This document shows, one piece after another, positions 5,936-26,876 of a DNA stretch of 64,000 nucleotides. Numbering within the stretch: position 1 is the first letter of the stretch; each line of letters opens with the position of its first letter. The stretch is from assembly GCA_937872225.1 (NCBI GenBank), contig CALMRZ010000049.1, positions 1-64,000 on the forward strand, written 5' to 3'. The notes beneath the pieces are model-generated. The model did no database searches. It was given only the letters and a program-made list of their open reading frames with translations, and was not told the origin of the DNA. The position numbers were made by a program, and so were the translations under genes. This stretch comes from an uncultured Spirochaetota bacterium. GTDB lineage: Bacteria; Spirochaetota; UBA4802; UBA5550.

Positions 5936-6973
5936 TTATCCAACAACCGCGCCGATATTCACATAGTCCCTGACAATCTGCTCCAGGAACTTCATCTTCT
6001 CGTCGCTGTCATGGGTAAGGAGCGCGTCGAAGTTGTCCATCTGCCGCGTCACATCATAGGTGTCGTAGGGCACGAGGAGCAGGGGTATGTTCTTCTCGGA
6101 GGCCTTGCTGATGATCGCCGGGGGCGGTACGATGTTGTTCGTCAGGATAACTCCCACGGTGTCGCTTTCCAGGGCGGCGATGATCATATCGCTCCGGTCT
6201 CCGCTCGTGATGAGGAGCTTCTGATCCTTGTTAAAGAGGGGGTTGCGCATCGATTCGTCGGTTGACATGGCCCCCACGAAAATGTGCTTCACCACGTTGT
6301 TCAGGCCGCCTTCGCCGGCGATGATCCGGGCAAGGAAGCGGTCCGCGAGAAAACTCATGGTAAAAAAAGTGAGTTGCGCCTTGTAGGGTATGATACCGAG
6401 GACCTTCACCCCCAGTGCGTCGATCGCGGGGAGATAGCTGTTCTTGAAATCGTCAACGTCCTGCACCTTGTTGACGATGACCCCGCCGAAATCCACCGAC
6501 GCCGTGTCTATGTACCGCCTAATAAAGCAGATATCGTCCGACACGCGGTCGCCGTCGCCGCTGACCACCAGGACGAAACGCGCCGAAAGCCCCCTGGCCA
6601 CCGACAGGGAATCGAGGTCAACCGACGAGCCCCAGGCAAGATCGCGCCCGCCTTCAATGAAGAGAACATCGCGACCCGCGCCGATGGTATCGGCCATGGC
6701 GACCAGCGCCTCCCGCATACCCTTCTCGTCGTATTTGTATTTGAGCTTTGAATGGGCGAAACCCAGGGAGATGCAGTCCGGTTCGCAATCAATGCCCAGG
6801 AGTTTCAGCAGCACCATGGCGTCATGGTCCACGTTCTTTTTACGCTTGTACTCCAGGCGGTCTCCCAGCGGCTTAATATATCCGATTTTCTTTCCCGCCG
6901 CAGCGGCAATGCCGGCTATGATGCTCGTCTTGCCGGCGCCTTCGCGCATTGATGCGATAACTATCTTTTTCAT
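5936..6973 (-). CDS. P-loop (CobB/BioD-like) protein with DRTGG domain
   Basis: A 345-residue protein. The N-terminal domain has a P-loop (SMREGAGKTSIIAGIA) and the dethiobiotin-synthetase/CobB-type ATPase fold. The C-terminal third (from about residue 215) matches the DRTGG domain, including ITSGDRSDMIIAAL. This pair of domains makes up the N-terminal regulatory part of long phosphotransacetylases and also occurs alone, as here; the catalytic PTA domain is absent. It is the last gene of an operon starting 12 bases after the ADP-forming acyl-CoA synthetase, so a role in sensing or regulating acetyl-CoA metabolism is the best guess. Confidence 0.8.
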   Translation of the reverse strand: MKKIVIASMREGAGKTSIIAGIAAAAGKKIGYIKPLGDRLEYKRKKNVDHDAMVLLKLLGIDCEPDCISLGFAHSKLKYKYDEKGMREALVAMADTIGAGRDVLFIEGGRDLAWGSSVDLDSLSVARGLSARFVLVVSGDGDRVSDDICFIRRYIDTASVDFGGVIVNKVQDVDDFKNSYLPAIDALGVKVLGIIPYKAQLTFFTMSFLADRFLARIIAGEGGLNNVVKHIFVGAMSTDESMRNPLFNKDQKLLITSGDRSDMIIAALESDTVGVILTNNIVPPPAIISKASEKNIPLLLVPYDTYDVTRQMDNFDALLTHDSDEKMKFLEQIVRDYVNIGAVVG

Positions 6974-6985
6974 CGTCGTTCCTCC

Positions 6986-11302: not shown

Positions 11303-11677
11303 CTATTTTCCGAAGTTCTGCCGCACCACGCGCAGCAGCTCTTCCGGGTCAAAGGGCTTCTGGAACGTGCCGTTGCAACCGAGCTCGAAAATATCAATAT
11401 TAGTGGCCGTGAGCCTGCCGATGTCGCTCAGGAGATAGATGGGGACCTTTTTATTTTTATCGCGTATCTCCCGGACAAGGCGTATCCCGGTGTCTATTTT
11501 TTCCATCATGATATCACAGATGACCAGGTCCGGCGTCTGTTCCATGAAGAGCTTGATCCCCTCGGCGCCGTTCCCGGCCGCCCTGACCGCGTATCCTGCC
11601 GATTCGAGGGTCACTTTCAGCGACGACAGAAAATCAGGATCATCATCGATAATCTGTATAACCTTCTTGCTCTGCAT
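11303..11677 (-). CDS. single-domain response regulator
   Basis: A 124-residue receiver domain with the acidic pair (IIDDDPDF), the phosphorylation Asp in DLVICDIMM, and the conserved Lys in FQKPFDPEEL. There is no output domain. The ATG at 11677 is chosen because AAGGAGG lies six bases upstream; the ATG at 11683 would abut the Shine-Dalgarno sequence. It is the last gene of a minus-strand signalling operon and probably receives phosphate from one of the two kinases upstream. Confidence 0.87.
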   Translation of the reverse strand: MQSKKVIQIIDDDPDFLSSLKVTLESAGYAVRAAGNGAEGIKLFMEQTPDLVICDIMMEKIDTGIRLVREIRDKNKKVPIYLLSDIGRLTATNIDIFELGCNGTFQKPFDPEELLRVVRQNFGK

Positions 11678-11712
11678 CAACATCCTCCTTGAGATATGCC
11701 CTTCATGCCGCG

Positions 11713-12780
11713 TTATTTGCCGATGGTGAAGCAGAAGGTGGCGTATTCGCCCACTTTCGATTCCACCCATATCCGGCCATGGTGCTTTTCGACGATCTTC
11801 TTGCAGATATAAAGCCCGAGGCCGGACCCCTTGACGCCCTCGGTGCCTTTCTGCTTCAGGCGGCTGAACTTTTTGAACAGGCGCTGCTCGATGTCCTCCT
11901 TGGATATACCCACGCCCTCGTTCCGTATCGACACTTGGTACTGGCCGTCCGCCTCGGCGACCCTGACACGCACGGGCGTCTCGGGCGTCCCGTACTTGAT
12001 GGCATTGTTGATGAGGTTGGTCACGACGATCTTCAACAAATTGGGGTCTCCGTTGACCCGGGGCCTTACCGCGTAGTCGGTAACGATCGGCATCTTTTTA
12101 AGATTATCCGCATATTCGGGGATCTCGATAACCGGCTGTATGACATCATTCACGAGGTCGATATTCTGGGAAAAGGATTCCAGGTTATCTATGTCCATCT
12201 TCGAAAGGTCGATGTAGCTCCGGATAATGTCCTCCAGGTACTGGCAGTTCCGCAGTATTTTCTCCACGGTTTTCTGCTGTTCCGGATCGAGGTTCCCCAG
12301 GTAGCCGCGGTAGAGCGTCTCGGCGGTCGTGTGCACGGCCGAAACCGGGCTTTTCATTTCATGGGACACGATCGCCATGAGGTCCAGCATGCCGGCATCG
12401 GAATTCTTCTCGCGGGCCTTGACGGCATTGTCCACCACGGTCCGGAGCTCCTCGTTGGTGAACGGCTTCGGAATGTAGTCAAAGGCCCCGTTCTTCAGCG
12501 CATCCCGGGCGTTTTCAACGGTGGCATAGCCGGTAAATATGATAACGGTCACTTCAGGCTTGTTCTTCCGCAGGGCCGCCAGCACCTCCATCCCTCCCAG
12601 GCCCGGCATTTTCAGGTCCGTTATAACGATGTCATATTCCTTTTCGTCTGTCTTCTTGAGGCCCTCCTCGCCTGAATACGCCGTGTCTATCTCATACTCT
12701 TCATTCTTTAAAATCCTGAGGCAGCTTTTCAGCACTATATCCTCGTCATCGATGATGAGTATTCTTGTTTTTGTATCCAT
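11713..12780 (-). CDS. hybrid receiver-histidine kinase
   Basis: A 355-residue soluble protein with an N-terminal receiver (IIDDEDIVLKS, Asp in DIVITDLKMPG, Lys in YIPKPFT). A HisKA domain follows, with the phospho-acceptor His in IVSHEMKSPVSA, then a HATPase domain with NLINNAIKYG and GSGLGLYICKKIVEKH. It lacks membrane segments, so it is likely activated by phosphotransfer from the membrane kinase encoded eight bases upstream. Start at ATG 12780, preceded by GAGGGA. Confidence 0.87.
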   Translation of the reverse strand: MDTKTRILIIDDEDIVLKSCLRILKNEEYEIDTAYSGEEGLKKTDEKEYDIVITDLKMPGLGGMEVLAALRKNKPEVTVIIFTGYATVENARDALKNGAFDYIPKPFTNEELRTVVDNAVKAREKNSDAGMLDLMAIVSHEMKSPVSAVHTTAETLYRGYLGNLDPEQQKTVEKILRNCQYLEDIIRSYIDLSKMDIDNLESFSQNIDLVNDVIQPVIEIPEYADNLKKMPIVTDYAVRPRVNGDPNLLKIVVTNLINNAIKYGTPETPVRVRVAEADGQYQVSIRNEGVGISKEDIEQRLFKKFSRLKQKGTEGVKGSGLGLYICKKIVEKHHGRIWVESKVGEYATFCFTIGK

Positions 12781-12788
12781 GCCGTCCC

Positions 12789-14747
12789 TCAAACCGTAAT
12801 CATTGATTTACTGCCCGTGGTATTGTCGCCCGTGTCAACGGGGAACTCGATCGTGAACGTCGTTCCCTTCCCTTCAACGCTGTCAACCCTGATCGTGCCG
12901 TTGTGGCGCTGCACAATGCTGTAGGTGACCGACAGGCCAAGCCCGGTGCCCTTTCCCGTTTCCTTCGTGGTAAAAAAAGGATCGTATATTTTCGACAGAT
13001 TTTCCTTTTTTATGCCGGTGCCGGTATCCGAGACCGTCACGACTATCTTCCGTTCCGACTCGTCGTATCTCGTCCGTATGGCAAGGTCCCCCCCGTTGTG
13101 CATGGCGTCCGCGGCATTTACCGCGAGATTGTTGAAAACCGATTTGATCTGGTTGACATCTATATTAATTTCCGGAAGATTTTCTGCCAAATCTTTTTTA
13201 ATGCGGATGTTCTGAAAATTGACATGTTTTTCCAGTATCGTCAGCAATTCGTTTATGATCCTGTTCAGGTTCCCCGGCCTCTTGTCGATCCTGGTCTCCC
13301 GGGCGAAATCAAGGATACCCTTGACGATGTCCCTGCACCGTATCGTTTCATCTATGATAACCTTGAGGTCAGCCCGGTATCCCGGGTCCTTGATCTCTTC
13401 GTAGAGAACGGTGCTGTAGGAGAGGACGCCCGTTAAAGGATTATTGATCTCATGGGCGATCCCTGACGCGAGACGCCCCAGGGACGCCAGCTTTTCGGAT
13501 TGGGCCATCTGCATTTCGGTCTGCTCCTTCAGTTTCCGGTCGCGCTCGGATATGGCATCAACCATCCTGTTGAATGTCGTGCACAGGTATCCCATTTCAT
13601 CGGAGCTGGTGATGCTGATCTTTTGAATGTAATTTCCCTCGGCCAGCTGCTGCGAGGCTGAAACGAGCCGCTTGATCGGGGTGATGATCCCACGGATCAG
13701 GTATATCGACAGGACCGCGGCGACACAGCCGGTGATGAGTATGACCAGCAGGGTGAACATGGTGGCGTTCCGCTGGATCTGGTTGTACTTTTCCTCAAGG
13801 ATGCCCACGTACAGGATGCCGACGACCCTTCGGTTGATGTCATAGATGGGGCTGTAACCGGAAAGGTACCAGCTGTCGACGACGAAGGCCTTGTCGAGCC
13901 ATACCTTCCCCAACTCAAAAACCTTGCTGTACACCTCCTCGGAAATCTGGGTGCCCACCGCCCGCTTACCGGAGCTGTCCTTAACGTTCGTGGAAATCCG
14001 CAGATCATCCATGAACAACGTAACCGTCCCTATTTCATGGCTCCCGATGCGCTCGTCTTTGAAAAGGAGATTTTTCAGCGAGTTCACCATGTCAAAATTA
14101 TTATTGAGCAGTTTCGCGCCGTATATGACGCCTATGAGCCTGTCACCGCTGAAAATCGGAGCTGCGGCCTTTTTGCACATGCCCTTTGTTTCGTAGATTC
14201 TGTCCTTGGGACGGGCCCGCAGGGTCGGGACGACCCTGATATACGCCCGGTCAGCGAGATCCTTGCTTTCCCGCAGCAGCTGTTCGCGGGTAACAATATC
14301 GGTGCCGGAGCATGGTTTTCTTTTCTCGAGGACATATTTCACAAAGGCGTCCCCGCTTTCATCATCGCCGAAGCTCTGGGGATTGTTCGCCCGCGCTATG
14401 ACCCTTCCGCTTGCGTCGGTTATGGTCATGATATCGACATTCAGCTCCTTTTTCACCTTGAGGAGCTTCTCGATAAGGAGCGGCCGGTCATTATAGAGTA
14501 TCGCGTTCTGGAGATATTCAAGCGAAGAGAGGTGGTTGATGAACAGGTAAATGATCTTAATGCGTTCGTTATAGAAATAGCGGGCGGTATTGAGGTGGCT
14601 TCGCACCTCCTCATACGCCTGCCCCACCACGTTGTTGTTGATGACATTAAGACCGAGGAATACCGAGCTGAAACCGCTGATGGCTACAACTGACATAAGG
14701 CTGATAACAAGCTTGGTGCTGATTTTCGCCCTGAATCGTGCCTTCAT
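12789..14747 (-). CDS. membrane sensor histidine kinase with Cache-like domain and HAMP
   Basis: A 652-residue kinase. A first membrane helix (about residues 10-33) and a second (about 333-356) bracket an extracytoplasmic region of about 300 residues, probably a Cache-type sensor. A HAMP linker with ITPIKRLV follows, then HisKA with GIAHEINNPLTG (acceptor His) and a HATPase with NNLAVNAADAMH, DTGTGI and GTGLGLSVTYSIV. It belongs to the operon that also encodes a hybrid kinase and two lone receivers, and lies next to the hydrogenase operon on the same strand. The ligand is unknown; Cache domains often bind small organic acids or amino acids. Confidence 0.87.
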   Translation of the reverse strand: MKARFRAKISTKLVISLMSVVAISGFSSVFLGLNVINNNVVGQAYEEVRSHLNTARYFYNERIKIIYLFINHLSSLEYLQNAILYNDRPLLIEKLLKVKKELNVDIMTITDASGRVIARANNPQSFGDDESGDAFVKYVLEKRKPCSGTDIVTREQLLRESKDLADRAYIRVVPTLRARPKDRIYETKGMCKKAAAPIFSGDRLIGVIYGAKLLNNNFDMVNSLKNLLFKDERIGSHEIGTVTLFMDDLRISTNVKDSSGKRAVGTQISEEVYSKVFELGKVWLDKAFVVDSWYLSGYSPIYDINRRVVGILYVGILEEKYNQIQRNATMFTLLVILITGCVAAVLSIYLIRGIITPIKRLVSASQQLAEGNYIQKISITSSDEMGYLCTTFNRMVDAISERDRKLKEQTEMQMAQSEKLASLGRLASGIAHEINNPLTGVLSYSTVLYEEIKDPGYRADLKVIIDETIRCRDIVKGILDFARETRIDKRPGNLNRIINELLTILEKHVNFQNIRIKKDLAENLPEINIDVNQIKSVFNNLAVNAADAMHNGGDLAIRTRYDESERKIVVTVSDTGTGIKKENLSKIYDPFFTTKETGKGTGLGLSVTYSIVQRHNGTIRVDSVEGKGTTFTIEFPVDTGDNTTGSKSMITV

Positions 14748-14773: not shown

Positions 14774-15175
14774 TTAGATGTATTTCGCCACCTTCTCCAG
14801 CAGTAAATCAAAGTTGACCGGCTTTGTCAAGAAATCATTAACTCCCGGCAAAAAACTGTTTTTATCGTCCAGGGAAAACCTCGAATTAGTGACCTGGTTG
14901 ATGGCGGTAAGAACGATTATCGGCACATTCTTGACTTCTTTGTATTTTGACGTCGGGCGGTCGCTCCGTATCATGTTTGCCACTTCAAAGCCGGCAGTGT
15001 CCTTTTCCATCATGATGTCAAGGATGATCAGGTCAGGCTTGACCGCCAGGACCTTCTTGAGGGCCTCAGCTCCCGAATAGGCCTCCGTCACTTCATAGCC
15101 CTTCGATGAGAGGACTTTTGTTAAATTGGAACAGGTGTCTATATCATCATCGACCATTAATATTTTTTTAGCCAT
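14774..15175 (-). CDS. single-domain response regulator
   Basis: A 133-residue receiver with MVDDDIDTC, the phosphorylation Asp in DLIILDIMMEKD, and Lys in FLTKPVNF. A 15-residue insertion near residues 75-110 (FSLDDKNSFLPGV) separates the usual beta-4 and beta-5 regions. GGAGT upstream supports the ATG at 15175. It is the first gene of the signalling operon and lies downstream of the hydrogenase genes across a 21-bp palindrome. Confidence 0.86.
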   Translation of the reverse strand: MAKKILMVDDDIDTCSNLTKVLSSKGYEVTEAYSGAEALKKVLAVKPDLIILDIMMEKDTAGFEVANMIRSDRPTSKYKEVKNVPIIVLTAINQVTNSRFSLDDKNSFLPGVNDFLTKPVNFDLLLEKVAKYI

Positions 15176-15270: not shown

Positions 15271-15801
15271 CTACTGGTTCAGCACCTGGTATATAACGTT
15301 CCTTTCTTCAAAGGCCTTGTTCTTCAGATACGTGTCGATCGGGAATTCGACCTGCTTCAGCTCGACCGGCGACGCCTTCTTGTCCACGAGGCCAAGGGCA
15401 AGGGCCACGCCGTAAATGATCGCCTCCGGCTTGGGAGGACAGCCCGGGATGATGTAATTTACCGGGACCGCCTTGTCGGCGCCGCCGGTAACATGGTAGC
15501 AGTCAAACCAGCTTCCGCCGCCGGACGCGCATGATCCGATGCCGAACACCAGCTTCGGCTCCGGCATGGCCGCGTAGGCCTTTTTGACCAGGGGCAGGGT
15601 CGGCCGGGTCACGGCGCCGGATATCAGCATGACATCGGCGTGCCGCGGCGAGGCCACCAGCTTCATCCCGAACCGTTCGATATCATAATACGGCGTGAGG
15701 ACGTTCAGTATCTCAATGTCACAGCCGTTGCAGGCGCCCGAGTTGCAGTGATAAACCCAAAGAGACTTGGGGAAAGCTTTTTTACATAATTTGGCCAGCA
15801 T
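15271..15801 (-). CDS. group-4 [NiFe] hydrogenase small subunit (NuoB/EchC/HycG-like)
   Basis: A 176-residue protein carrying the proximal [4Fe-4S] cluster that passes electrons to or from the NiFe site. Likely ligands are C24 and C27 (SGACNGCDIE), C91 (GIGSC) and C121 (PGCPPKPE), the pattern of complex I NuoB and energy-converting hydrogenases. The length is typical of the short group-4 small subunits. It is the last gene of the nine-gene operon, 11 bases after the ferredoxin-like subunit. Confidence 0.9.
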   Translation of the reverse strand: MLAKLCKKAFPKSLWVYHCNSGACNGCDIEILNVLTPYYDIERFGMKLVASPRHADVMLISGAVTRPTLPLVKKAYAAMPEPKLVFGIGSCASGGGSWFDCYHVTGGADKAVPVNYIIPGCPPKPEAIIYGVALALGLVDKKASPVELKQVEFPIDTYLKNKAFEERNVIYQVLNQ

Positions 15802-15812
15802 ATCTATTCTCC

Positions 15813-16352
15813 TTACTTCTGGGGTCTCTTGAAGCGGTCCGATTCTTCCAGCATCTTCGGGTCGAATTGCTCCGTCGTCAGCTTCGATATAACGGCGCGC
15901 GTCTCAAGGTTATCGTACTTGAAGCCCCTGAGCCCCATCTTGTCTATCATATTGGTGGTTTCCATGTTAAAGCATCTGCCGCAGCGCTGACAGGTCAGCA
16001 TGAAGAGCTCCATGTTGACGCCGATATCGTTCTTGTCGTTGGTCGCCAGCTCGTACTGCTCCGTCATGGTGATGGCGTCCTCGGGACAGACATCGGCGCA
16101 GCGGCCGCAGTAGGTACAGCGCGACCCGTCGTAGTACATCACGCGCAGGTCCTGGCACACGTCGCGGATCAGGATCGTCCGCGCCGGACAGTGGGCGGCG
16201 CAGCCGCCGCAGCCCACGCATTTATGGTGATCCCAGGAAGGCTGTCCCCGGAAATCCTTCGCAACCGGATGCGGCTCAAAGGGATACTTCAGGGTGACGA
16301 CACCCGGCTTTAATACCAACAGAACCTGTTTTATTTTACTCATCAAATACAC
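15813..16352 (-). CDS. hydrogenase ferredoxin-like subunit (NuoI/EchF/HycF-like)
   Basis: A 179-residue protein with two [4Fe-4S] motifs, CVGCGGCAAHCP and CTYCGRCADVCP, typical of NuoI-type subunits that wire the peripheral arm of complex I and group-4 hydrogenases. A third Cys group, CQRCGRC, is additional. The GTG at 16352 is preferred over the ATG at 16343: AAGGAG (16360-16365) is seven bases from the GTG but sixteen from the ATG. It sits between the NuoH-like and NuoB-like genes. Confidence 0.87.
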   Translation of the reverse strand: MYLMSKIKQVLLVLKPGVVTLKYPFEPHPVAKDFRGQPSWDHHKCVGCGGCAAHCPARTILIRDVCQDLRVMYYDGSRCTYCGRCADVCPEDAITMTEQYELATNDKNDIGVNMELFMLTCQRCGRCFNMETTNMIDKMGLRGFKYDNLETRAVISKLTTEQFDPKMLEESDRFKRPQK

Positions 16353-16373
16353 AGCAGTTCTCCTTAAATTGAA

Positions 16374-17276
16374 TTATATCCCGTAAACTGACAGCCCGAT
16401 GGCAACCAGGGAAGCGGCTATCAGCACCGCATAAAACTTCTGCGCCTGGTCAATCCGCATCCGCGGGTGGGTTGAACCCAGGACCGCTATCAGGACATAC
16501 ACCAGTGAAACAAAGGCAAGCTGTATCAGAACATCAAAACCGTAGTACCCGGTCTTGATTGCCGGTATGAAAACGACCACGAAGAGCGCCGCGTAGAACA
16601 TCTGCTTCATCAGCATGTAATACTTGAACAACGCCAAGTTGGGGCCGCTGAACTCGATGAAGGGCCCTTCCAGGATCTCGACTTCCGCTTCAGCTATGTC
16701 AAAGGGCTGGCGACCCACGAAGGCCTGCAGGGCGGCGAGGTAGACCACCAGCATGATGATGACCGAAGCGCCGTAGCCGCCGCCCGCCACGCTGGCCACC
16801 GAGGCGCCGATGCCCAGGCTCTTGATCTTGACGGCGCCGAGGATGAAGGTCATGGCCAGGACCGGTTCGACCATGATCATGGTTATCATTTCACGGCTTG
16901 ACCCGAGGGAGGCATAGGTGTTCTTGCTGGACAGCGCGCCCAGGAGAACGGCGACGCCGCCGAGGGTCAGCAGGTATATGACGGTGATGATATCGGCATA
17001 CCCGGCAAGGACGTTCACTTCATGCCCCAGCGGGAAGAAGACGATGACGCTGATGATAGAAGCAAGGGCGACCAGGGGCGCGATCTTGAATCCGACATTG
17101 CCGGGAGTCAGGTTCTGCTTTCCCAGGAGCTTGAATATATCGTAGTAGGTCTGCATCAGGGGGGGGCCCTGCCGCGACTGCACTACCCGTGCCGTTATCC
17201 GCCGCACCACGCCGTCAAAGAACGGCGCCAGCAGTAAAAATACCAATATATTGACCGCGACGTACAGAATGTCCAT
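16374..17276 (-). CDS. hydrogenase membrane subunit (NuoH/EchB/HycD-like)
   Basis: A 300-residue integral membrane protein with about eight hydrophobic segments. It has the NuoH signatures GPPLMQTYYDIFKLLGK and PFDIAEAEVEILEGP, the charged loop that contacts the peripheral arm and helps form the proton/sodium path at the quinone-like junction. The ATG at 17276 follows GGTGAG and begins right before the first membrane helix. It is four bases from the end of the fused large-subunit gene. Confidence 0.9.
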   Translation of the reverse strand: MDILYVAVNILVFLLLAPFFDGVVRRITARVVQSRQGPPLMQTYYDIFKLLGKQNLTPGNVGFKIAPLVALASIISVIVFFPLGHEVNVLAGYADIITVIYLLTLGGVAVLLGALSSKNTYASLGSSREMITMIMVEPVLAMTFILGAVKIKSLGIGASVASVAGGGYGASVIIMLVVYLAALQAFVGRQPFDIAEAEVEILEGPFIEFSGPNLALFKYYMLMKQMFYAALFVVVFIPAIKTGYYGFDVLIQLAFVSLVYVLIAVLGSTHPRMRIDQAQKFYAVLIAASLVAIGLSVYGI

Positions 17277-17280
17277 GTTC

Positions 17281-18963
17281 TCACCTTCCCGCGAATTTTT
17301 TAGCCCGAGATATCTTTTCCAGGTCCATCTTGGTGAGACGGCTCTTCTCACCGGTCCTGATGTCAACTTTCACGACCCTGTCAGTGCAGGAGAAGCAGGG
17401 GTCGATGCTGCCGATGATGATCGGCAGGTCCGCGAACTGGTCGTTGAGGAGCATCGCCGGGACGCCCTGCAGGTTCGGATACGTCGGGGCGCGGACGCGC
17501 CACCGTTCCGGCCTGTTCTCCTCGCCGGTGATCAGGTAATGCACCACTTCGCCCCGGGGGGCCTCGACCGCGGCAATGGCGTGCTGCAGCGGCTTGACGT
17601 CCTCGGCGAATTCGGTCATGATCGGGCCCGCCGGCATCTTGTCTAGGGCCTGACGGATGATCTTGATCGCTTCAAAGGTCTCGAGGATACGGACGACCAC
17701 GGTGCCCCACACGTCGCAGGAATCCACGACCGGAACGTCGAACTGCATTTCGTCGTAGGCCGCGTAGGGGTGGTCGCGGCGGACGTCGATGTCGACCCCG
17801 CGCGCCCGGGCCACCGGGCCGACCAGGCTCCAGAGCTCCGTCTCCTGCTTGGTGATGCATCCGACGCCCTTGGTGCGGCGGTGTATGGAACCGTCGCCGA
17901 CAATGGCCTTGTGTATGGTAATGAGCTCCTTTTCAATCGTCTTGAGAATGCCCAGGAGCTCGTCCCCGAGTTCGGGGGTGATGTCCCGGCGTACCCCGCC
18001 GGCGACGATCATGCCGTAGGTCTTCCGGTTTCCGGTCAGTTTCTCGCCATACCACATGATGGCCTCGCGGACCCGCCATGCCTGCATGAAGACCGTGTCA
18101 AAGCCGATCAGGTGCCCCGCTATCCCCAGCCAGAGGAGGTGGGAGTGGATGCGCTCGATCTCCAGCATGATGGTGCGGATATATTCCGCGCGGCGGGAGA
18201 TCTTCAAGCCCGCGGCAAGTTCCAGCGCCTGGGAATAAGACGTTGCGTGCACGGAGCCGCAGATACCGCAGATCCGCTCGGCGATAAAGGGTATTTCGTT
18301 GTAGGTTACCTGGGTCTGGCAGAGCTTTTCCAGGCCGCGGTGCACCATGAAGCCGCGATAGTCACAGCCCTTGATGGTCTCTCCGTCGACGAAGACCGCG
18401 AAGTGCGCCGGCTCGTGCAGGGTCGGATGGAACGGACCCACCGGAATGGTGGTGCAGCCCTCGGGGGCCTCGTCAAGCTGATAGGCCACGTTTTCCGCCG
18501 CAGGGGGCATCAGGTTATAGGGCACCTCCTTCCGGAGGGGATACACGCCCTCGGGCCAGTCATCGGCGAGGATCAGCCGCTTCGGCTTCGGGTGTCCCTT
18601 GAATTTCATCCCCAGCAGGTCCATGTATTCCCGCTCGGACCAGCCGGCGTTGGGAATGTCGGGCGTGATGGAGTCGAACTCTGGATTGTCCACCGGTGCG
18701 GAAGTGCGGATGCAGACAAAGAGGTCGTCCCGGTCAAGGCTGAAGTTGTGGATGAGTCCCAGCGTTTTGTCCCGGGCAATGTTGTCGTACCCTACGCTCA
18801 CCAGGTAGCGGCCGCCCATCTTGATTATCTCGTTGGATATTTCCCTGACCTTGCTCTTGTCGATGTCCACGAACAGCCGCGTGCTGTAGGGAGCCTCGAA
18901 GTTTTTGACTGCGGCCTGGTATTTATCTTTTAACTGTTTTTTTACATCATCAATCGTAAGCAT
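17281..18963 (-). CDS. group-4 [NiFe] hydrogenase large subunit, NuoC-NuoD fusion (HycE-like)
   Basis: A 560-residue protein. Residues 1 to about 150 are NuoC-like (30 kDa subunit); the rest is the NuoD-like catalytic domain. The NiFe ligands are present: ICGIC (C232, C235) and DPCFSC (C523, C526). The chain ends with 31 more residues after DPCFSCTDR. In HycE the same place, after the Arg of DPCxSCTER, is cut by the HycI protease once nickel is inserted, so cleavage after R529 is likely. The protease gene in this operon fits. All four Cys argue for an active hydrogenase, not an Ehr or complex I homologue. Confidence 0.92.
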   Translation of the reverse strand: MLTIDDVKKQLKDKYQAAVKNFEAPYSTRLFVDIDKSKVREISNEIIKMGGRYLVSVGYDNIARDKTLGLIHNFSLDRDDLFVCIRTSAPVDNPEFDSITPDIPNAGWSEREYMDLLGMKFKGHPKPKRLILADDWPEGVYPLRKEVPYNLMPPAAENVAYQLDEAPEGCTTIPVGPFHPTLHEPAHFAVFVDGETIKGCDYRGFMVHRGLEKLCQTQVTYNEIPFIAERICGICGSVHATSYSQALELAAGLKISRRAEYIRTIMLEIERIHSHLLWLGIAGHLIGFDTVFMQAWRVREAIMWYGEKLTGNRKTYGMIVAGGVRRDITPELGDELLGILKTIEKELITIHKAIVGDGSIHRRTKGVGCITKQETELWSLVGPVARARGVDIDVRRDHPYAAYDEMQFDVPVVDSCDVWGTVVVRILETFEAIKIIRQALDKMPAGPIMTEFAEDVKPLQHAIAAVEAPRGEVVHYLITGEENRPERWRVRAPTYPNLQGVPAMLLNDQFADLPIIIGSIDPCFSCTDRVVKVDIRTGEKSRLTKMDLEKISRAKKFAGR

Positions 18964-18989
18964 GATTTACCTCTTGTAAATAATGTGCC

Positions 18990-20837
18990 TTATTTTTTAA
19001 CGTTGCCCCCGGTCCACTTGACCGCCTTCTTGAATGCGGAGTACATATTGTGGGCCACGTACCTGTTATTATTATTGAGATCCTGATATCCGCACAGCCA
19101 GGTGGGGACTTCCTTCTCTTCCGCTCCGCCCGATTTCTTCAGGAGCCACGCGAAGAGGTAAGCCGCCGCCAGGATGATCAGCACCACCAGCGGAACGGCC
19201 ACCGAGGATACCGCGCCTTCAAGGCCGGGGACGGTCACCGACACGCCCATGGCTGAATTGACAATGTAATTGTCGAGGCTGACGTCCCCGAACACGGCCT
19301 GCAGGCTTGATCCTGCCGAGTTCTTGAATATCCCTATGAACGTCTCGAAATAGAGGATGGGGAGCAGGCCCTGCGCCAGGCAGAGCATGGCGAGGATGAC
19401 CTTCGGGAGCAGCATGGTCCAGGGGACTTCCTTGATCTCCTTCTTCACGGTCCATTCAACGCCGGAGGAAGTGAAGGTCATGCCGAAGAACTTGACGTAC
19501 GACGCCAGGGTGACGGCGCTCGTGAAGAGGGCGATGATGCCGAAGATGGCCAGCATCAGTGACTGGTTTCCCGCCAGGATATCGGAGGAGATGATCGTCC
19601 ACTTGCTGGCGAAGCCGCTGAAGGACGGCATACCGGCGATCGAGAGTGAGGCGATGCCGGCCACCAGCGCGGTCACCGGCATGATCTTGATAAGGCCGCC
19701 CAGCTTGTTCAGGTCCTTGGTGCCGGTGGCGTAGAGAACGCTGCCGGTGGAAAGAAAGAGGAGGCCCTTGAACACGGTGTGGTTCAGGGTGTGGTACATG
19801 GCGCCTATGATGGCCAGCACCGACAGGGCCTTCACGAACACGCTCGGGCTGTTCAGCATGACCAGGGCCGAGCCGATGCCGAGTATGATATATCCCATCT
19901 GTCCGATGGAGTGGTACGCATGGAGGCGTTTCGCGTCATGCTGTTTCAGCGCCTGGGTCGTACCGACGAAGAGGGTGACGGCGCCGAAGCTCGCTATGAT
20001 GATGCCCCAGACCATGCCGTTGAATCCCTCCTTGGGGACCATCCAGAAAAAGGTCCGGATGATGCCGTACACGCCGGTCTTGATCATGACGCCGGAAAGG
20101 AGGGCGCTGATCGGGGACGGCGCAATGGAGTGCGCGTCGGGCAGCCAGAGCTGTCCGAAGGGGAACATACCGGCCTTGAAGCCGAACCCTATGAGGATCA
20201 GGCCGTAGACGATGAAGAGGGACGCGCCCGAAGTGGCGCCCAGTTTCTCGACCAGTGAGTGGAGCGAATCGCCCCAGGAGAACCCGCTTATGAAGAAGGT
20301 GCCGGCCAGGATCAGGACCCATGCCAGCTCCATCAGGATGAGGTACTTGTTGGCGTTCCGGATATTCCCTTTTTCCTTGTATTCAAACCGGATCAGGAAA
20401 TAGGAGGCGACGGTCATGATCTGCCAGGCTATGGTGAAGCCGGTGGACAGGTCGTCGACGGTCACGATGCCGATCATCCCCAGTATGAAGAGGGGGAAGC
20501 AGAGGTAATAGCTCCAGAGCTTGTAGTCGGCATAGTGTTCCATGTACTGGATCGAATAGAAGGAACTCATGATCGCCAGGAACGAAATGATGCCGATGAA
20601 GAACCCGGAGAAGCCGTCTATGAGCATGTATACGCCCAGAACCTTCTGCGTCGCGGCCCCCCCCTGGAAAATGGATACAAAACTAATATTCAAGAGCACA
20701 ACAGCGGCGGCGGTGACCAGAATGAAATTCAGCCAGCCCGCCAGCTTCCGTTTGCCCGACAATAGCGGCACGATGACGGCTGAGCCGAGCAGTATTGCCA
20801 TTGCTATTTGCAAGCTAGAATAGAGATCAATGTTCAT
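18990..20837 (-). CDS. hydrogenase antiporter-like membrane subunit (NuoL/EchA/HyfB-like)
   Basis: A 615-residue protein with about 14-16 membrane helices and the proton-translocating core of Mrp/NuoL antiporters. Conserved parts include the Lys-bearing helix in GFGFKAGMFPFGQLWLPDAH and HTLNHTVFKGLLFLSTGS. It is the only antiporter-type subunit in the operon, so the membrane arm is minimal, as in Ech, with NuoH as the other piece. It should pump H+ or Na+ when electrons flow between the soluble module and protons. Its start overlaps the end of the protease gene by 11 bases. Confidence 0.9.
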   Translation of the reverse strand: MNIDLYSSLQIAMAILLGSAVIVPLLSGKRKLAGWLNFILVTAAAVVLLNISFVSIFQGGAATQKVLGVYMLIDGFSGFFIGIISFLAIMSSFYSIQYMEHYADYKLWSYYLCFPLFILGMIGIVTVDDLSTGFTIAWQIMTVASYFLIRFEYKEKGNIRNANKYLILMELAWVLILAGTFFISGFSWGDSLHSLVEKLGATSGASLFIVYGLILIGFGFKAGMFPFGQLWLPDAHSIAPSPISALLSGVMIKTGVYGIIRTFFWMVPKEGFNGMVWGIIIASFGAVTLFVGTTQALKQHDAKRLHAYHSIGQMGYIILGIGSALVMLNSPSVFVKALSVLAIIGAMYHTLNHTVFKGLLFLSTGSVLYATGTKDLNKLGGLIKIMPVTALVAGIASLSIAGMPSFSGFASKWTIISSDILAGNQSLMLAIFGIIALFTSAVTLASYVKFFGMTFTSSGVEWTVKKEIKEVPWTMLLPKVILAMLCLAQGLLPILYFETFIGIFKNSAGSSLQAVFGDVSLDNYIVNSAMGVSVTVPGLEGAVSSVAVPLVVLIILAAAYLFAWLLKKSGGAEEKEVPTWLCGYQDLNNNNRYVAHNMYSAFKKAVKWTGGNVKK

Positions 20838-21336
20838 AAACGAGCTCCTTTTGATCGCAGTTAATATACGATAGTAATAGATCGCGGATTATATCAGCGC
20901 TTTTCTTAACGTCCTCGGAAAGACCCGTGCCGTAATCGACATCCCCGACTTCAATGCCGAGGAACCAGGTCTTCTTGTTATATTGCTCCAGCACCTTCCC
21001 GGACAGAAACAGGGAAAGCTTGTGGGTCGAATAATTATTGTTGAACGTCTCCTCAAACTCATGCAGCCGGCCGAAATAGACGGAGCCTTTTTCCGCGCCG
21101 GACTGCATCGCGTCGATGACGACCACGTTGTCGCAGTCGCTGTCGGCTATTTTGTACACATAGTTTTCTATCACGTCCTCGACATTCAAAACCGAGACCG
21201 TGGGCGAATCGATCTGTTCCCTGATCCCGTCAACGACGTACACGCCGGCCGCGTCGTCGCCCATGAGGGGGTTCCCCATGCCGACGAAGCAGGTCTTCTC
21301 GCGGGCCAGCCGCTCTATGACGGGGAGGAATTCCAT
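20827..21336 (-). CDS. hydrogenase maturation protease (HycI/HyaD family)
   Basis: A 169-residue peptidase. The N-terminal GMGNPLMGDDAAG and the later VVVIDAMQSG and YSTHKLS supply the acidic residues and His that bind nickel in HybD/HycI proteases. It should trim the C-terminal tail of the large subunit after NiFe assembly. Its ATG (21336) overlaps the preceding stop by one base (TGATG) and its end overlaps the NuoL-like gene, so it is embedded in the operon. A dedicated protease supports a functional NiFe site. Confidence 0.88.
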   Translation of the reverse strand: MEFLPVIERLAREKTCFVGMGNPLMGDDAAGVYVVDGIREQIDSPTVSVLNVEDVIENYVYKIADSDCDNVVVIDAMQSGAEKGSVYFGRLHEFEETFNNNYSTHKLSLFLSGKVLEQYNKKTWFLGIEVGDVDYGTGLSEDVKKSADIIRDLLLSYINCDQKELVYEH

Positions 21337-22169
21337 CAAAACTGCTCTCCCAGGGTCTTGAGCTGCTTGTAGTTGTACACCGGTCCGTCGGTGCACACCA
21401 GGGTACGGCCGACGGCGCAGTGCTGGCACTTGCCGATGCCGCACTTCATGTGCCGCTCGAGGGTGGAGATGATGTTCTCCTCCTTGATACCGAGCTCGGT
21501 GAGCTCCTTGATGACGGCGTTGAACATCATCGGGGGGCCGCACACGAAGGCCACCGTGTTCTCCACGGGAATGTTCTTTTTCTTCAGAAGCGTGTGAACG
21601 AACCCCGTGTCGCCGTCCCAGCCGGGAACCGGATTGTCGATGGTAAGGTTCATCTCAAAACCCGGGGTGTTCTTCCACTCCTTGATGTTATATGCGTACA
21701 TGTGCTCCTGCGGGGTCCTGGCGCCCAGGAATATAAGGACGCGGCCGAACTGGTCTTTGTTCTGCATGACCCGCATGATGGACGAACGCAGCGGAATGAA
21801 CCCGATGCCGCCCGCCACGTATATGACGTTCTTGCCCTTGATCTCCTCGAAGGGGAACCCGTTGCCGAAGGGGCCGCGGATCCCGACCTTGTCGCCGACC
21901 TTCAGCGAGTGCAGCGCGTTGGTGACCTTGCCGACCCGGCGCACCGTCAGGTGGAACCTGTCGTTCTCGGGGCTGGGCGGAAGCGAGACCGCGAACTCAC
22001 CGGACCCGAAGACCGTGCACATGACGAACTGGCCCGACGTGAATTTCGGAGGCTGCCCCCCCTGTCTTTCATCAAAGGAAAGATAGAAGGTCTTGACTTC
22101 AATGATCTCATCCTTGATTTCGGTGATCGTTGCTATTTCAGGTATTGTTATGTTGTTTAATTCGCTCAT
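21336..22169 (-). CDS. FAD/NAD(P)-binding oxidoreductase subunit (sulfhydrogenase gamma / AsrB-like)
   Basis: A 277-residue ferredoxin-NADP-reductase-fold protein. RGPFGNGFP and VAGGIGFIPLRS are the flavin and pyridine-nucleotide regions, and CGPPMMF is the NAD(P) motif. The C-terminus has four Cys (CGIGKCQHCAVG with a later Cys before TDGP), the [2Fe-2S] site of HydG, AsrB and dihydroorotate dehydrogenase PyrK. It would connect NAD(P)H to the hydrogenase complex. The ATG at 22169 is chosen because AGGTGG lies just upstream; a GTG nine bases earlier is the alternative. Confidence 0.88.
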   Translation of the reverse strand: MSELNNITIPEIATITEIKDEIIEVKTFYLSFDERQGGQPPKFTSGQFVMCTVFGSGEFAVSLPPSPENDRFHLTVRRVGKVTNALHSLKVGDKVGIRGPFGNGFPFEEIKGKNVIYVAGGIGFIPLRSSIMRVMQNKDQFGRVLIFLGARTPQEHMYAYNIKEWKNTPGFEMNLTIDNPVPGWDGDTGFVHTLLKKKNIPVENTVAFVCGPPMMFNAVIKELTELGIKEENIISTLERHMKCGIGKCQHCAVGRTLVCTDGPVYNYKQLKTLGEQF

Positions 22170-22178
22170 GTCACCCAC

Positions 22179-23234
22179 CTACTTTTGAATGTCTCGTCTG
22201 ATATACGTGACAACATTGGGCAGGCCGATATCGCCCGGGCATACCCACTGACACCGCCCGCAGCCGACGCAGCCGGGACGAAGATACTTCTTGGATTGCG
22301 AATACGAAAGCTTGCAGAAGAACCGCTTGCTCCGCCGGTCCTCGACCGGTTTCCGCGGATTATGGCCGCCCGCCATCCGGGAATAGCCCTCGTAGGAGCA
22401 GGAATCCCAGGTGCGCATCCGGTCGGCCGTTTCAGGGCCCGTCACCGGGTCGACGATATTGAAGCAGGTGCAGCTGGGGCACACGAAGGAGCAGGCGCCG
22501 CATTCGATGCACTGGTTGCCGATGTATTCCCAGACCTTTTCGTCGATGAGGCCGGTCGTTACCCGGTTCACCACCCGCGATATCCAGGCCTTGTTGTCCT
22601 TCGCTATCGCGTCGAACGCATTGATCGATTTATCAATAACTTCTGATTTAGCCTTCTTGTGGGAATCGTCCGAATTTTTAAGCCCGAGTTTCTCAGCCAG
22701 CGCTTTGCCCTTGTCGCTGCCGGCCTCGACCAGGTACTGGTCGCCGAGGTCGGTAAGGTTAAGGTCGTATCCCTCCTGGGCGCTGGGGCCGCTGTCGGTG
22801 CACACACAGAAGCACTGCTTGAAAGGCACGTTGCAGGTGTTGGTCACGATGAACATGTTCTTGCGATGGTTCTTGTACACGTCATCGACGAACTCCTGGC
22901 CCAGGAAGAAGCGGTCCATGCAGAGCACGCCGGTGAGGTCGCATGACCGGAGGCCGAAGAGGGCCTTTTTCGAACTGTCGAAGTCCGGCTTGATCTCTAC
23001 CTTCTGGTTCTTCTTGTCATACTGGTACGACATGATCCGTTCGAACTGGGGGAACAGCGCGTGCTTCGGCGGCTTCGCGGGTATGGGCGCGTTCAGGTCA
23101 AGTTCGGCAATGTCATCGACCTTGACGAACATGCACTGCTTCGCTTCCTTCTCCATTACCGGGCCGTACACCTGGTATTCCTTCTGCAGTTCCTTGGCAA
23201 TATCCAATACTTGGCTTTTGTTTATCAAATACAT
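22179..23234 (-). CDS. Fe-S electron-transfer subunit (sulfhydrogenase beta / AsrA-like)
   Basis: A 351-residue protein with two C-terminal [4Fe-4S] motifs, CIECGACSFVCPSC and CVGCGRCQWVCP. The N-terminal part has GLRSCDLTG and NTCNVPFKQCFC, shared by AsrA of anaerobic sulfite reductase and HydB of archaeal sulfhydrogenase. It should relay electrons between the AsrB-like flavoprotein and the rest of the complex. It is two bases downstream of the MopB-type gene and nine upstream of its flavoprotein partner. Confidence 0.87.
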   Translation of the reverse strand: MYLINKSQVLDIAKELQKEYQVYGPVMEKEAKQCMFVKVDDIAELDLNAPIPAKPPKHALFPQFERIMSYQYDKKNQKVEIKPDFDSSKKALFGLRSCDLTGVLCMDRFFLGQEFVDDVYKNHRKNMFIVTNTCNVPFKQCFCVCTDSGPSAQEGYDLNLTDLGDQYLVEAGSDKGKALAEKLGLKNSDDSHKKAKSEVIDKSINAFDAIAKDNKAWISRVVNRVTTGLIDEKVWEYIGNQCIECGACSFVCPSCTCFNIVDPVTGPETADRMRTWDSCSYEGYSRMAGGHNPRKPVEDRRSKRFFCKLSYSQSKKYLRPGCVGCGRCQWVCPGDIGLPNVVTYIRRDIQK

Positions 23235-23236
23235 GG

Positions 23237-25207
23237 TTATACCTTCACAATTCTTACTGGGATTGTTGTGTCTTCGCCTCTCTTCAGGACATCCTTGTGT
23301 TCCATGAAGAACTTGGTGACCATTTCATCGACAAAGTAAGCAACGTAGGCCGTGTTCGGCTTCACCTTGTCGGTCACCTGCGCCAGCGTCTCCATCGAGC
23401 CGTAGGGCGATACGATCTTGACCGGGAACCGGTCTCGGACGTTCAGCTCCTTGGCCTTCTGCGGAGATATGGCGACATAACCCTGCGGATAGAGGAGCAG
23501 CGTCGCGTTGTATTCGCGCAGGGGTATGTGGGTCTTTTTCATCAGATTGTTCTGGTGCCAGTAATGCTGGGATTCGCCTATGAGCAGAAGGACCGGGTAT
23601 TCCTCGCTCGCCAGGGGAACGGCGAAATTGGCGTCAACGGGGGCGAAGGCCGCCTTGTTCGCGGCTTTTTCCGCGTCATAGCGGTCAAGGCCGTAGGTTT
23701 TGACGCCGCCGATCCCCAGCTTGTCGTGGGAAACGGCCGAATAGCTCGGCGTGAGCTTGGCGATCTCCTTCATGACGTCCGCCGGTGATCCATAGCTCCA
23801 CGTGGCGCCGGCCTTTTCCGCTATCTTCGAAAAGACCTGCCAGCAGGCCAGGATGTTCTTCGGGGGCTCAACCTTCTTCTTCGCCAGCTGGACGCGCCGC
23901 TCGGTGTTGGTGAAGGTGCCGTCGGTCTCGGCATAGGTGGCTACGGGAAGCACCACGTGGGCGTAATCCATGAAACCGTTCTGGTATGAGCCTATGTAGG
24001 CGACGAAATCCGTCTTCTTGATATCGTCCACGTTGCGGATGATGGTTTCGTCATGATCGACGGCGACAAAGGCCCTCAGCTTGCTTCCCATCTCGTTGGG
24101 CGACTTGCCCGCCTGCGTGTTCAGCTTCACCCCCCACTCCTTGTTGAACTTGTCAACAGCGGCGCTGTCGGACAGCTTCTGGAACCCGGTGAGGAGATCA
24201 GGGGCGATGCCCATATCCTTGCTCCCCTGCAGGTTGTTGATACCGGTGATGGGATTGACGCCGCATCCTTCCTTGCCGATCTTGCCGGCCATCAGGTAGA
24301 GGTTGTAGATGTAGCTGACGGTTTCCCTGTCGAATCCGGAGATGCCGGAGGAGTAGAACACCATGGCCGACCTGGAAAGGGCCAGGTCCCGCGCCAGGGT
24401 CTTCAGTACTTCTATATCGACGCCGGTCTTCTCGACGACTTCGCTTTCCTTCAGGGAGGAAAGGACCTTGGTGAAGGAATCGTATCCTTCGGTGTGCTTC
24501 TTTATGAAATCGACATCGGCGAGGTTCTCGTCCAGGAGCACCTTCGCCATGTAGGCTATGGCAATCTTGTAGGCCCCGGGCTGTATCTGGAGGAAACCGT
24601 TGGACAGCCGGGCTATCTGGGTGACCCGGGTATCGATGGTGAACACGCGCGACCCCTTGCGGGCGGCCATGTGAATCTCGCTGCCGATGATCGGGTTCTG
24701 CTTGGTGATATCGATGCCCACGACGAGCATGAAGTCGGCCCTGGATATCTCCTCAAGGGACCCGAGCATGCCCGCCATGCCGGTGCCCTTGTGCAGGACG
24801 TCAAGGCTGATCCGGTGGCCGGGATCGCAGTCAAGGCTGATGTTATTGGTATTGAACACGGACCGGGCCAGCCTCATGAGAAGGTAATTGTCCTCGTTGG
24901 AGGAACGGGGCGAGGCAAGGAATCCGATCTCATCCGGGGAAACCTTTTTGAGTTTTTCCACCAGATAGGAAACCGCTTCGTCATAGGACGCCTCGACCAG
25001 TTTGCCGTCCTTCCTGATGAGCGGGGTCGTTATTTTTTCAGGTGTGTTTAACAGCTCATGCACATTCCATCCCCGAACACAGAGCCGACCCTTGCTGACC
25101 GGGTGGTTTTGCATCGGGAAGACGCCGCACACCTTATCATCCCTGACATCCAGGAGATGACCGCATCCCGTACCACAAAATGTGCAAATACCGGATTTAT
25201 AATTCAT
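23237..25207 (-). CDS. molybdopterin-oxidoreductase-family subunit (FdhA/NuoG-like) lacking the usual Cys/Sec ligand
   Basis: A 656-residue protein, first in the operon, with GAGGAG before its ATG. The N-terminal [4Fe-4S] motif is complete (C8, C11, C15, C43), and the MopB fold and C-terminal dinucleotide-binding domain are recognisable. In formate dehydrogenases the metal ligand lies in a CxRxCH or UH motif after the NN(V/I)D segment. Here that segment reads NNISLDCDPGHRISLDVLHKGTG, and Leu occupies the expected Cys/Sec place. The protein therefore resembles NuoG or other electron-conduit members more than an active formate dehydrogenase. Automatic annotation would probably call it FdhA. No in-frame TGA is present that could encode Sec. 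Confidence 0.8.
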   Translation of the reverse strand: MNYKSGICTFCGTGCGHLLDVRDDKVCGVFPMQNHPVSKGRLCVRGWNVHELLNTPEKITTPLIRKDGKLVEASYDEAVSYLVEKLKKVSPDEIGFLASPRSSNEDNYLLMRLARSVFNTNNISLDCDPGHRISLDVLHKGTGMAGMLGSLEEISRADFMLVVGIDITKQNPIIGSEIHMAARKGSRVFTIDTRVTQIARLSNGFLQIQPGAYKIAIAYMAKVLLDENLADVDFIKKHTEGYDSFTKVLSSLKESEVVEKTGVDIEVLKTLARDLALSRSAMVFYSSGISGFDRETVSYIYNLYLMAGKIGKEGCGVNPITGINNLQGSKDMGIAPDLLTGFQKLSDSAAVDKFNKEWGVKLNTQAGKSPNEMGSKLRAFVAVDHDETIIRNVDDIKKTDFVAYIGSYQNGFMDYAHVVLPVATYAETDGTFTNTERRVQLAKKKVEPPKNILACWQVFSKIAEKAGATWSYGSPADVMKEIAKLTPSYSAVSHDKLGIGGVKTYGLDRYDAEKAANKAAFAPVDANFAVPLASEEYPVLLLIGESQHYWHQNNLMKKTHIPLREYNATLLLYPQGYVAISPQKAKELNVRDRFPVKIVSPYGSMETLAQVTDKVKPNTAYVAYFVDEMVTKFFMEHKDVLKRGEDTTIPVRIVKV

Positions 25208-25749: not shown

Positions 25750-26421
25750 CTACTTGTTCTGCATGATGACCCACTGGATGGCGTACTTGGAAAGGTCGGA
25801 GGAATTCTTGAGCTTCAGCTTCTCTTTGATGTTCTTTTTGTGACTTTCAACGGTATAGATGCTGAGATTCAGCTTTTTCGCCATTTCCTTGGTGCTGAAG
25901 CCGTTGCCGATGAGCTGGAATATCTCGAATTCCCGGTTGCTCAGGTTCTCAACGGAAATGCCGATGGTGTCCGCCGACCCGCGGACCAGCTTGTCGATTA
26001 TCTTTTTCGATATGTTCTCGCTTAAATAGAGCTCGTCATTGATGATGGTCCGGATGGCATTGATGATGTTTTTCGAGGCAACCTCTTTCATGATGTAGCC
26101 CCGGGCGCCCGCCCGGATGGCCCGCTCGGCGTAAAGGGACTCGTCGTGCATGGTCAGCACCAGGGCCTTGATGTCGGGGAACCGCTCGTTGATCGACTTG
26201 ACCAGCTCGATGCCGCTCACGTTACCCGCCAGGGTGATGTCCACGATGGCAATGTCCGGCTTGTCGCGGTTGATCATGTCTATGGCCTCGTTGGCGCTCG
26301 AGGCCTCGCCGGTGACCTTCAGGTCCTCTTCCAGCTCTATGACCTGCTTGATGCCCTGCCGGAGCAGCGGATGATCATCGACAATCAGGATTTTCTTGTG
26401 TTCAATCGCTTTTTCTGACAT
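25750..26421 (-). CDS. NarL/LuxR-family response regulator
   Basis: A protein of about 223 residues with an N-terminal receiver (ILIVDDHPLLRQ, Asp in DIAIVDITLAG, Lys in GYIMKEV) and a C-terminal LuxR-type helix-turn-helix (LSNREFEIFQLIGNGFSTKEMAKKL, STVE-like segment IYTVESHKKNIKEKL). It should bind DNA when phosphorylated, probably by the PAS kinase encoded at 28702-31341, whose HisKA_3 type pairs with NarL regulators. The ATG at 26421 is the conventional start; a GTG at 26463 is possible. Neither has a strong ribosome site. Confidence 0.86.
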   Translation of the reverse strand: MSEKAIEHKKILIVDDHPLLRQGIKQVIELEEDLKVTGEASSANEAIDMINRDKPDIAIVDITLAGNVSGIELVKSINERFPDIKALVLTMHDESLYAERAIRAGARGYIMKEVASKNIINAIRTIINDELYLSENISKKIIDKLVRGSADTIGISVENLSNREFEIFQLIGNGFSTKEMAKKLNLSIYTVESHKKNIKEKLKLKNSSDLSKYAIQWVIMQNK

Positions 26422-26876
26422 ATTCGGTACTGCGTTTTTGTCTGAAACTGTCTGGTGCTGCACTGAATGGACCGCCCGATACCCATGATCCCCGGGCCAC
26501 CGCCTGTGACCCTAACCGAAAATATGCATTACATATCTTCATGGGTATAATACTACCGGGCTTCCGTAAAGTCAATCCCAAGTTTTTGCTATTTTTATTC
26601 CATTATTCCAAGGTTATGGTTACCGGCAGCGGTGTCATTTTATACAATGGGACATGGCGCGGGCAAATCCAGCGCAACCGGACACGCCGCCTTAATTTTC
26701 GGCGAGAACGGCCCCCGAAGCGGGGTGTAACGGCTGAAGCCGGACGTACCCGGCCGCCTGATAAGCTACAGGGCGCGGATGAAAACCTCGCCCATTTCGA
26801 ATTCCCTGAGATCACGTTGTTTAAAGGCGGGGCCACGCGACCCCGGCTTCAAGCATGCTACACTAGTCGCGGAACG
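26422..26876. other. intergenic region
   Basis: About 450 bases between the acyl-CoA synthetase stop and the NarL regulator start. It includes a GC-rich part (26640-26870) with a hairpin repeat. No reading frame looks like a protein. Confidence 0.45.
26826..26847. repeat. second copy of the GGCGGGG-CACG-CCCC hairpin
   Basis: This stretch reads GGCGGGGCCACGCGACCCCGG and closely resembles 5904-5926 (GGCGGGGTCACGTAACCCCGC), including the following TTCA. Both lie just downstream of minus-strand genes or between gene ends, suggesting a short dispersed repeat that may act as a 3' hairpin. Confidence 0.5.

Follow-up and report, generated by a model that had tools for sequence, protein, structure and literature searches.

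A [NiFe] hydrogenase operon related to formate hydrogenlyase that combines a formate dehydrogenase-like subunit lacking catalytic residues with a putative NAD(P)H-type input arm

The 64,000-nucleotide stretch analysed here (the window; contig CALMRZ010000049.1 of assembly GCA_937872225.1) stems from the 4.7 Mb, 97.7% complete genome of an uncultured Spirochaetota bacterium and encodes a membrane-bound [NiFe] hydrogenase at positions 15271–25207. The initial annotation had described nine tightly packed minus-strand genes in this region, all of which were found again, with the same families, by Pfam and NCBIfam profiles and inspection of start codons. The first gene (23237–25207) encodes MopB, a molybdopterin-fold subunit of formate dehydrogenase (FDH) lineage, which retains an N-terminal [4Fe-4S] site and lacks the FDH catalytic residues. 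It is followed by genes for a HydB/AsrA-like Fe-S subunit, a putative electron relay (22179–23234), a HydG/AsrB-like FAD- and NAD(P)-binding subunit with a [2Fe-2S] site (21336–22178; NAD_binding_1, FAD_binding_6 and DHODB_Fe-S_bind domains) and a fast-evolving maturation protease of the HycI type (20827–21336; TIGR00072, 99.5 bits). The remaining genes encode a NuoL/HyfB-like antiporter-like membrane subunit (18990–20837; Proton_antipo_M), the fused NuoCD/HycE-like hydrogenase large subunit with a C-terminal tail (17281–18963; 39% identity to HycE), a NuoH/HycD-like membrane subunit (16374–17276; NADHdh, 35% identity to HyfC), a NuoI/HycF-like ferredoxin subunit (15813–16343) and the NuoB/HycG-like small subunit (15271–15801; Oxidored_q6, 50% identity to HycG).

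The nine genes form one operon in this genome. Inspection of the start codons gave gaps of 2 (between the MopB and HydB-like genes), 0–9, 26, 4, 21–30 and 11 bases, while two gene pairs overlap, one by 1 base and the other by 11. No terminator-like hairpin was found on the minus strand in any of the gaps. The HydG-like subunit may start at ATG 22169 or GTG 22178, NuoI at 16343 or GTG 16352. The ATG of the protease (21336) overlaps the stop codon of the HydG-like gene by one base, the mechanically called reading frame from 21543 being too long, and the NuoL-like gene (start at 20837) overlaps the protease gene in turn.

The order MopB-HydB-HydG-(protease)-NuoL-NuoCD-NuoH-NuoI-NuoB, for which a search in other genomes had been proposed, recurs in 18–20 genomes of the host's order. 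When species genomes were scanned, almost all of the 61 loci recovered outside it, in other species and phyla, showed this order too, so that the recurrence is far beyond chance. Carriers belong to the Spirochaetota, Aminicenantes/Acidobacteriota, Chitinibacteraceae, Rhodocyclus, Chromatiaceae and Oligoflexia, with Chitinibacter, Chitinilyticum, Deefgea, Rhodocyclus and Lamprocystis as cultured representatives among the Beta- and Gammaproteobacteria. Among the sampled Spirochaetota, the operon was present in 32 of 393 genomes, 30 of which belong to a single order and the other two to a different family. In two deltaproteobacterial metagenome-assembled genomes (loci L058 and L061) the operon is rearranged: the NuoH gene precedes that for MopB, and HydG and NuoCD have no NuoL gene between them. 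The protease was not upheld as a universal member: three loci (L079, L086 and L104) have no room for it, and the reading frames at its position in L094 and L105 gave no family match at 1e-6, unlike those in L068 and L083.

The operon unites NuoB, NuoH, NuoI and NuoC with an antiporter-like subunit, and its NuoD-like large subunit carries the RxCGxCxxxH and DPCxxC signatures of group 4 [NiFe] hydrogenases. The nickel-site motifs RICGICGSVH and DPCFSCTDR are kept in all large subunits (C232 and C235 in 56/56, C523 and C526 in 55/55), and the cluster cysteines of NuoB are almost as constant (C24, C27 and C91 in 55/55, C121 in 54/55). In a maximum-likelihood tree of large subunits, the 21 sampled family members form one clade (support 100/99), which joins HycE, HyfG and two Spirochaetota formate hydrogenlyase (FHL) operons as their sister and does not fall inside them (100/99); Mbh and other group 4 types fall outside this grouping. 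The next-best relatives within the Spirochaetota share 31–48% identity, compared to 67–100% inside the operon family. The tree holds no CooH or EchE references, and no HydDB class was assigned. From this tree, the core is probably of the formate-hydrogenlyase type, sister to E. coli HycE/HyfG, rather than Ech. The earlier designation as Ech-type describes the parts list but not the ancestry: both the fused NuoCD and the sister relation to FHL speak against group 4e, with the reservation that EchE is absent from the tree.

The operon shares a number of parts with E. coli FHL-1 (FdhF-HycBCDEFG, HydDB group 4a): both have the fused NuoCD, one NuoL-like and one NuoH-like subunit, HycF and HycG homologues, an FDH-lineage subunit and a HycI-type protease. 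In contrast to FHL-1, the operon has a catalytically stripped FDH subunit, an added HydB/HydG pair and a response regulator partner (see below), and no gene for a HycB-type ferredoxin is found in the nine-gene set. In E. coli, it is HycB that connects FdhF with the hydrogenase (PMC9474812).

The HydB-like subunit scored best with ShyB (169 bits), followed by HydB (152) and AsrA (143), and matched the beta subunit of P. furiosus SH1 (9nez_B) at E=3e-40; 17 cysteines are invariant in 61/61 sequences. The HydG-like subunit matched 9nez_C of the same enzyme at E=5e-51 and keeps four cluster cysteines in 60/60. The pair therefore has the cluster cysteines and the FAD and NAD(P) domains of sulfhydrogenase beta and gamma subunits. 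Since their scores fall below the curated equivalog cut-offs for these subunits, the two proteins represent a distinct subfamily. They are not members of AsrAB either (143 versus 323 bits for AsrA, 187 versus 289 bits for AsrB). In the sulfhydrogenase or group 3b NADP hydrogenase SH1 (9nez), which has the same cluster cysteines, the pair serves a soluble group 3 enzyme, whereas here it accompanies a membrane group 4 core. The joining of a membrane NiFe core to MopB and a sulfhydrogenase-type pair, as initially annotated, is thereby supported, with the nickel ligands of the active site intact. The sequence of the HydG-like subunit does not discriminate between NADH and NADPH.

MopB had been called NuoG/FdhA-like, of which only the second part holds. 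Its score was 429 bits with the FDH alpha profile TIGR01591 and 136 bits with NuoG. An AlphaFold2 model (predicted local distance difference test score 83.5, predicted template modelling score 0.88) gave FDHs as best fold matches, the NuoG of complex I ranking lower. Both family scores and fold matches led us to discard a descent from NuoG. MopB is not a member of TIGR01591 either, its score lying below the cut-off of 666 bits and its catalytic residues being gone. The catalytic residues of FDHs are Cys-His-Arg (PMC8965080). When 56 MopB sequences were mapped onto E. coli FdhF, the four [4Fe-4S] cysteines were kept in all of them, while the molybdenum-ligand position Sec140 (selenocysteine in FdhF) is Gly in 54 and Trp in two, with Sec or Cys in none. 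Arg333 (replaced by Thr, Ala, Val, Ser or Pro) and Gln335 (replaced by the aliphatic Ile, Leu or Val) are lost in 56/56. His141 is present in 37/56, the residue beside the lost ligand being variable (H, Q, L, Y). From these residues, MopB is not an ordinary formate dehydrogenase.

Because the catalytic residues are lost in all 56 sequences, formate is not a likely donor. It is accordingly very improbable that the operon encodes a plain formate hydrogenlyase in which MopB oxidizes formate and feeds H2 production, even though the large subunit is sister to FHL and FDH alpha is the best-scoring annotated family of MopB. The active-site Sec or Cys, Arg and Gln are missing, as is HycB; neither the catalytic FDH subunit (Sec/Cys, His, Arg) nor the ferredoxin of group 4a FHL was found. 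Moreover, related genomes encode Sec-containing FDHs in addition, as well as a genuine FdhF-HyfA-Hyf operon (loci L120/L121). These FDHs form a clade apart from MopB, mostly keep ARLCH and NPLRGQNN, and many or most have an in-frame TGA. Ordinary FDH chemistry is ruled out by the missing residues. No other MopB-like match was found in the window's genome at E<=1e-25.

A different chemistry at MopB is a less remote alternative, which we nevertheless regard as unlikely. MopB might still be an active Mo/W enzyme, in which a metal held by bis-molybdopterin guanine dinucleotide without a protein ligand oxidizes another substrate, the electrons being split between NAD(P)+ and protons or joined with those of NAD(P)H into H2. 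The FDH fold is kept, the [4Fe-4S] site is intact throughout, and W550, H551 and N553 are among the strongly conserved positions in the predicted cofactor region. The carriers also make molybdenum cofactor (MoaC in 30/31), which is uninformative on whether MopB holds it. Against such an activity, none of the FDH catalytic residues tested is constant, each being lost or variable; the residue beside the lost ligand varies as well, and MopB is the fastest-diverging of the soluble subunits, with 42–45% identity across phyla compared to about 59% for the AsrA-like and 63–66% for the AsrB-like protein.

NuoI contains 12 invariant cysteines (55/55), among them C66 and the CxxCxxC at 121–127 (C121, C124, C127), an extra set different from that of HycF. 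The cysteines would suffice for two clusters and possibly a third cluster or metal site near the metal-ion position of HycF, which might stand in for the missing HycB. Clusters beyond a linear chain, namely that of MopB and a possible one at the additional NuoI cysteines, would also fit a flavin-bifurcating or confurcating complex, in which NAD(P)H and reduced ferredoxin jointly drive H2 formation and ferredoxin docks on MopB or at the extra NuoI cysteines; the bifurcating enzyme Nfn-ABC has a MopB-like domain, too (9bov). We consider this quite unlikely, as the HydG-like subunit belongs to the FNR/PyrK type found in 9nez, the operon encodes no second flavin subunit, and most carriers scanned have RnfC homologues, so that exchange between ferredoxin and NAD may be served elsewhere.

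In the membrane arm, the lysines of NuoL in transmembrane helices (TM) 7 and 8 and in LNHxxFK are kept in 54/54 sequences, but the TM5 glutamate of the Glu/Lys pumping pair is Gln in all of them. This mirrors E. coli HycC, in which the TM7 lysine is replaced by Leu and Glu135 is kept (PMC9474812). The proton-pumping core of the initial annotation is hence less certain than stated, with the antiporter-like subunit and its lysines on one side and the lost glutamate on the other; proton pumping is plausible.

Directly downstream of nuoB, a stand-alone receiver (REC) response regulator of 133 residues without output domain is encoded (14774–15175, minus strand; Response_reg). It had been missed in the initial annotation, which took the nine genes as the unit: the gene set is real, but the conserved unit extends past nuoB, where the REC gene follows in 52/52 loci with enough sequence. 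Among the 393 Spirochaetota genomes, the REC protein (E<=1e-24) occurs in exactly the 32 that have the HydB-like subunit and in none of the 361 others; these genomes share ancestry and are not independent, with two separate families and several phyla in agreement. In most lineages kinases adjoin the REC gene. A Cache-HAMP-HisKA sensor kinase (12789–14747, minus strand) is usually its neighbour (29/44 loci with room), followed by a REC-HisKA hybrid kinase conserved across phyla (11713–12792, minus strand) and, at the end of the cassette, a further single-REC protein (11303–11770, minus strand; Response_reg).

The adjoining kinases, together with a LuxR-type regulator upstream in Spirochaetota, would suit an ordinary transcription-side signalling element that travels with the operon, an explanation compatible with the probable NAD(P)H/H2 role of the enzyme and one to which we give a lesser but substantial chance. 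Contrary to this, the protein lacks an output domain and is as conserved as the core subunits in Aminicenantes/Acidobacteriota. It is also kept in seven betaproteobacterial loci (six Chitinibacteraceae and Rhodocyclus) with no kinase match adjoining it; in the same seven, the phospho-acceptor Asp is changed to Glu and the acidic pocket is altered, which may reflect one or two evolutionary events only. A REC protein that outlives its kinase in a phospho-mimic-like form would be easier to understand if it served the complex directly and did not signal to transcription. In Spirochaetota loci, a LuxR-type response regulator (25750–26463) and a PAS histidine kinase (28702–31341) lie upstream of the operon.

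Taken together, the operon probably encodes a membrane-bound NAD(P)H/H2 oxidoreductase from the FHL branch of group 4 [NiFe] hydrogenases, with the dead FDH MopB as a structural subunit or conduit. An H2:NAD(P)+ or a ferredoxin-linked respiratory complex had been proposed; the former is the most economical reading. We infer the substrate, electron path, direction, coupling and REC target as follows. Electrons from NAD(P)H would enter at the FAD and [2Fe-2S] of the HydG-like subunit and pass along the [4Fe-4S] clusters lined up in the HydB-like subunit and then, through MopB or past it, to the clusters of NuoI, the cluster of NuoB and the NiFe site, or take the reverse path when H2 reduces NAD(P)+. 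MopB would be kept as a scaffold and/or one-cluster conduit in the place of FdhF and HycB in E. coli and of NuoG in complex I. The single antiporter-like subunit and NuoH probably couple turnover to proton movement. The REC protein may be a dedicated partner gating the complex or its assembly. Linked kinases, where present, would drive it; where these are absent, it would be phosphorylation-independent through the Asp to Glu change. The formation of H2 from NAD(P)H is uphill at standard potentials. Two directions are therefore conceivable: the enzyme could produce H2 where H2 pressure is low, possibly with the membrane potential as driving force, or it could use H2 to reduce NAD(P)+ and conserve energy in doing so. 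Several points weigh against this NAD(P)H/H2 oxidoreductase: NAD(P) use is read solely from the homology of the HydG-like subunit, the TM5 substitution weakens pumping, the carriers make molybdenum cofactor and MopB keeps its fold, so that a bound cofactor and other chemistry are possible, and a direct action of the REC protein is conjectural, ordinary regulation being possible as well.

A related gene set has been seen before. In Saganbacteria RX5A, a group 4 hydrogenase described as enigmatic combines cooF, asrA and asrB with Mrp-like subunits and a molybdopterin oxidoreductase that could not be classified (Matheus Carnevali et al. 2019, PMC6349859). It resembles the operon in joining a group 4 hydrogenase with MopB and AsrAB; by the published description it is set apart by cooF and the Mrp-type subunits. 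Five Spirochaetota loci (L122–L124, L130 and L131) contain another group 4 class with the order AsrA-AsrB-CooF/HycB-NuoH-NuoB-NuoC-NuoD-NuoI, which forms a clade of its own (100/100) and has no MopB in the loci checked. One of these also encodes a related single-REC protein (L131:79–477). The NADP-dependent formate dehydrogenase Fdh3 of Thermococcus likewise joins an FDH-type subunit to Fe-S partners and others that bind NAD(P), but is soluble, with an active Cys-His-Arg site, a different flavoprotein and no hydrogenase core (PMC8965080). Among the group 4 classes, HydDB, in the part of its description available, names none that is coupled to NAD(P) (PMC5037454). The operon family, its lost FDH site and its REC partner are unreported in searchable papers, most subscription journals being outside reach. 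What is new here is, by its gene content, a group 4 [NiFe] variant sister to FHL that has lost the formate site and gained an NAD(P)H-type input, with partial precedent.

In the window's genome no other Complex1_49kDa match was found, and therefore no complex I was detected; there was no FeFe hydrogenase match, while an RnfC homologue and two other NiFe hydrogenases are encoded. Near the operon (5936–10982) lie genes for an ADP-forming acyl-CoA synthetase-like protein, a DRTGG/AAA protein and an acetyl-CoA hydrolase-GNAT reading frame, which suggest an acetate-forming energy metabolism. In Chitinibacter tainanensis, Deefgea chitinilytica, Chitiniphilus eburneus and Rhodocyclus purpureus, the operon encodes the sole hydrogenase among the NiFe and FeFe families searched, and a deletion in such carriers should read out cleanly.

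Like complex I, the predicted enzyme has an NAD(P)H-type input on a NuoBCDHIL core and keeps a non-catalytic subunit of the MopB fold. It differs from it by the active-type NiFe site with nickel ligands present and by HydB/HydG in place of NuoEF, for which no genes are found in the operon, and its MopB, unlike NuoG, is of FDH lineage and without the N-terminal ferredoxin part. NDUFS1/NuoG has been related to FdhF by the authors of the FHL study, with an input pathway that is a relic in some species (PMC9474812). Our tentative, more far-reaching scenario, which we hold possible rather than probable, is that an FHL ancestor gave up formate as its input and gained NAD(P)H through the added HydB/HydG arm, its FDH decaying to a non-catalytic subunit. 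This would repeat independently, and with the NiFe site still working, the transition that has been proposed to account for the NADH arm and NuoG in complex I. In the same scenario, a dedicated REC protein would gate the enzyme by acting as a subunit and not on transcription. If true, the combination of an FHL-related hydrogenase, a dead FDH and an NAD(P)H-type arm would provide a living parallel to complex I gaining its NADH arm and keeping NuoG as a relic, and this step would become testable; the association with the REC protein may then exemplify an energy-converting complex under post-translational control by a two-component system.

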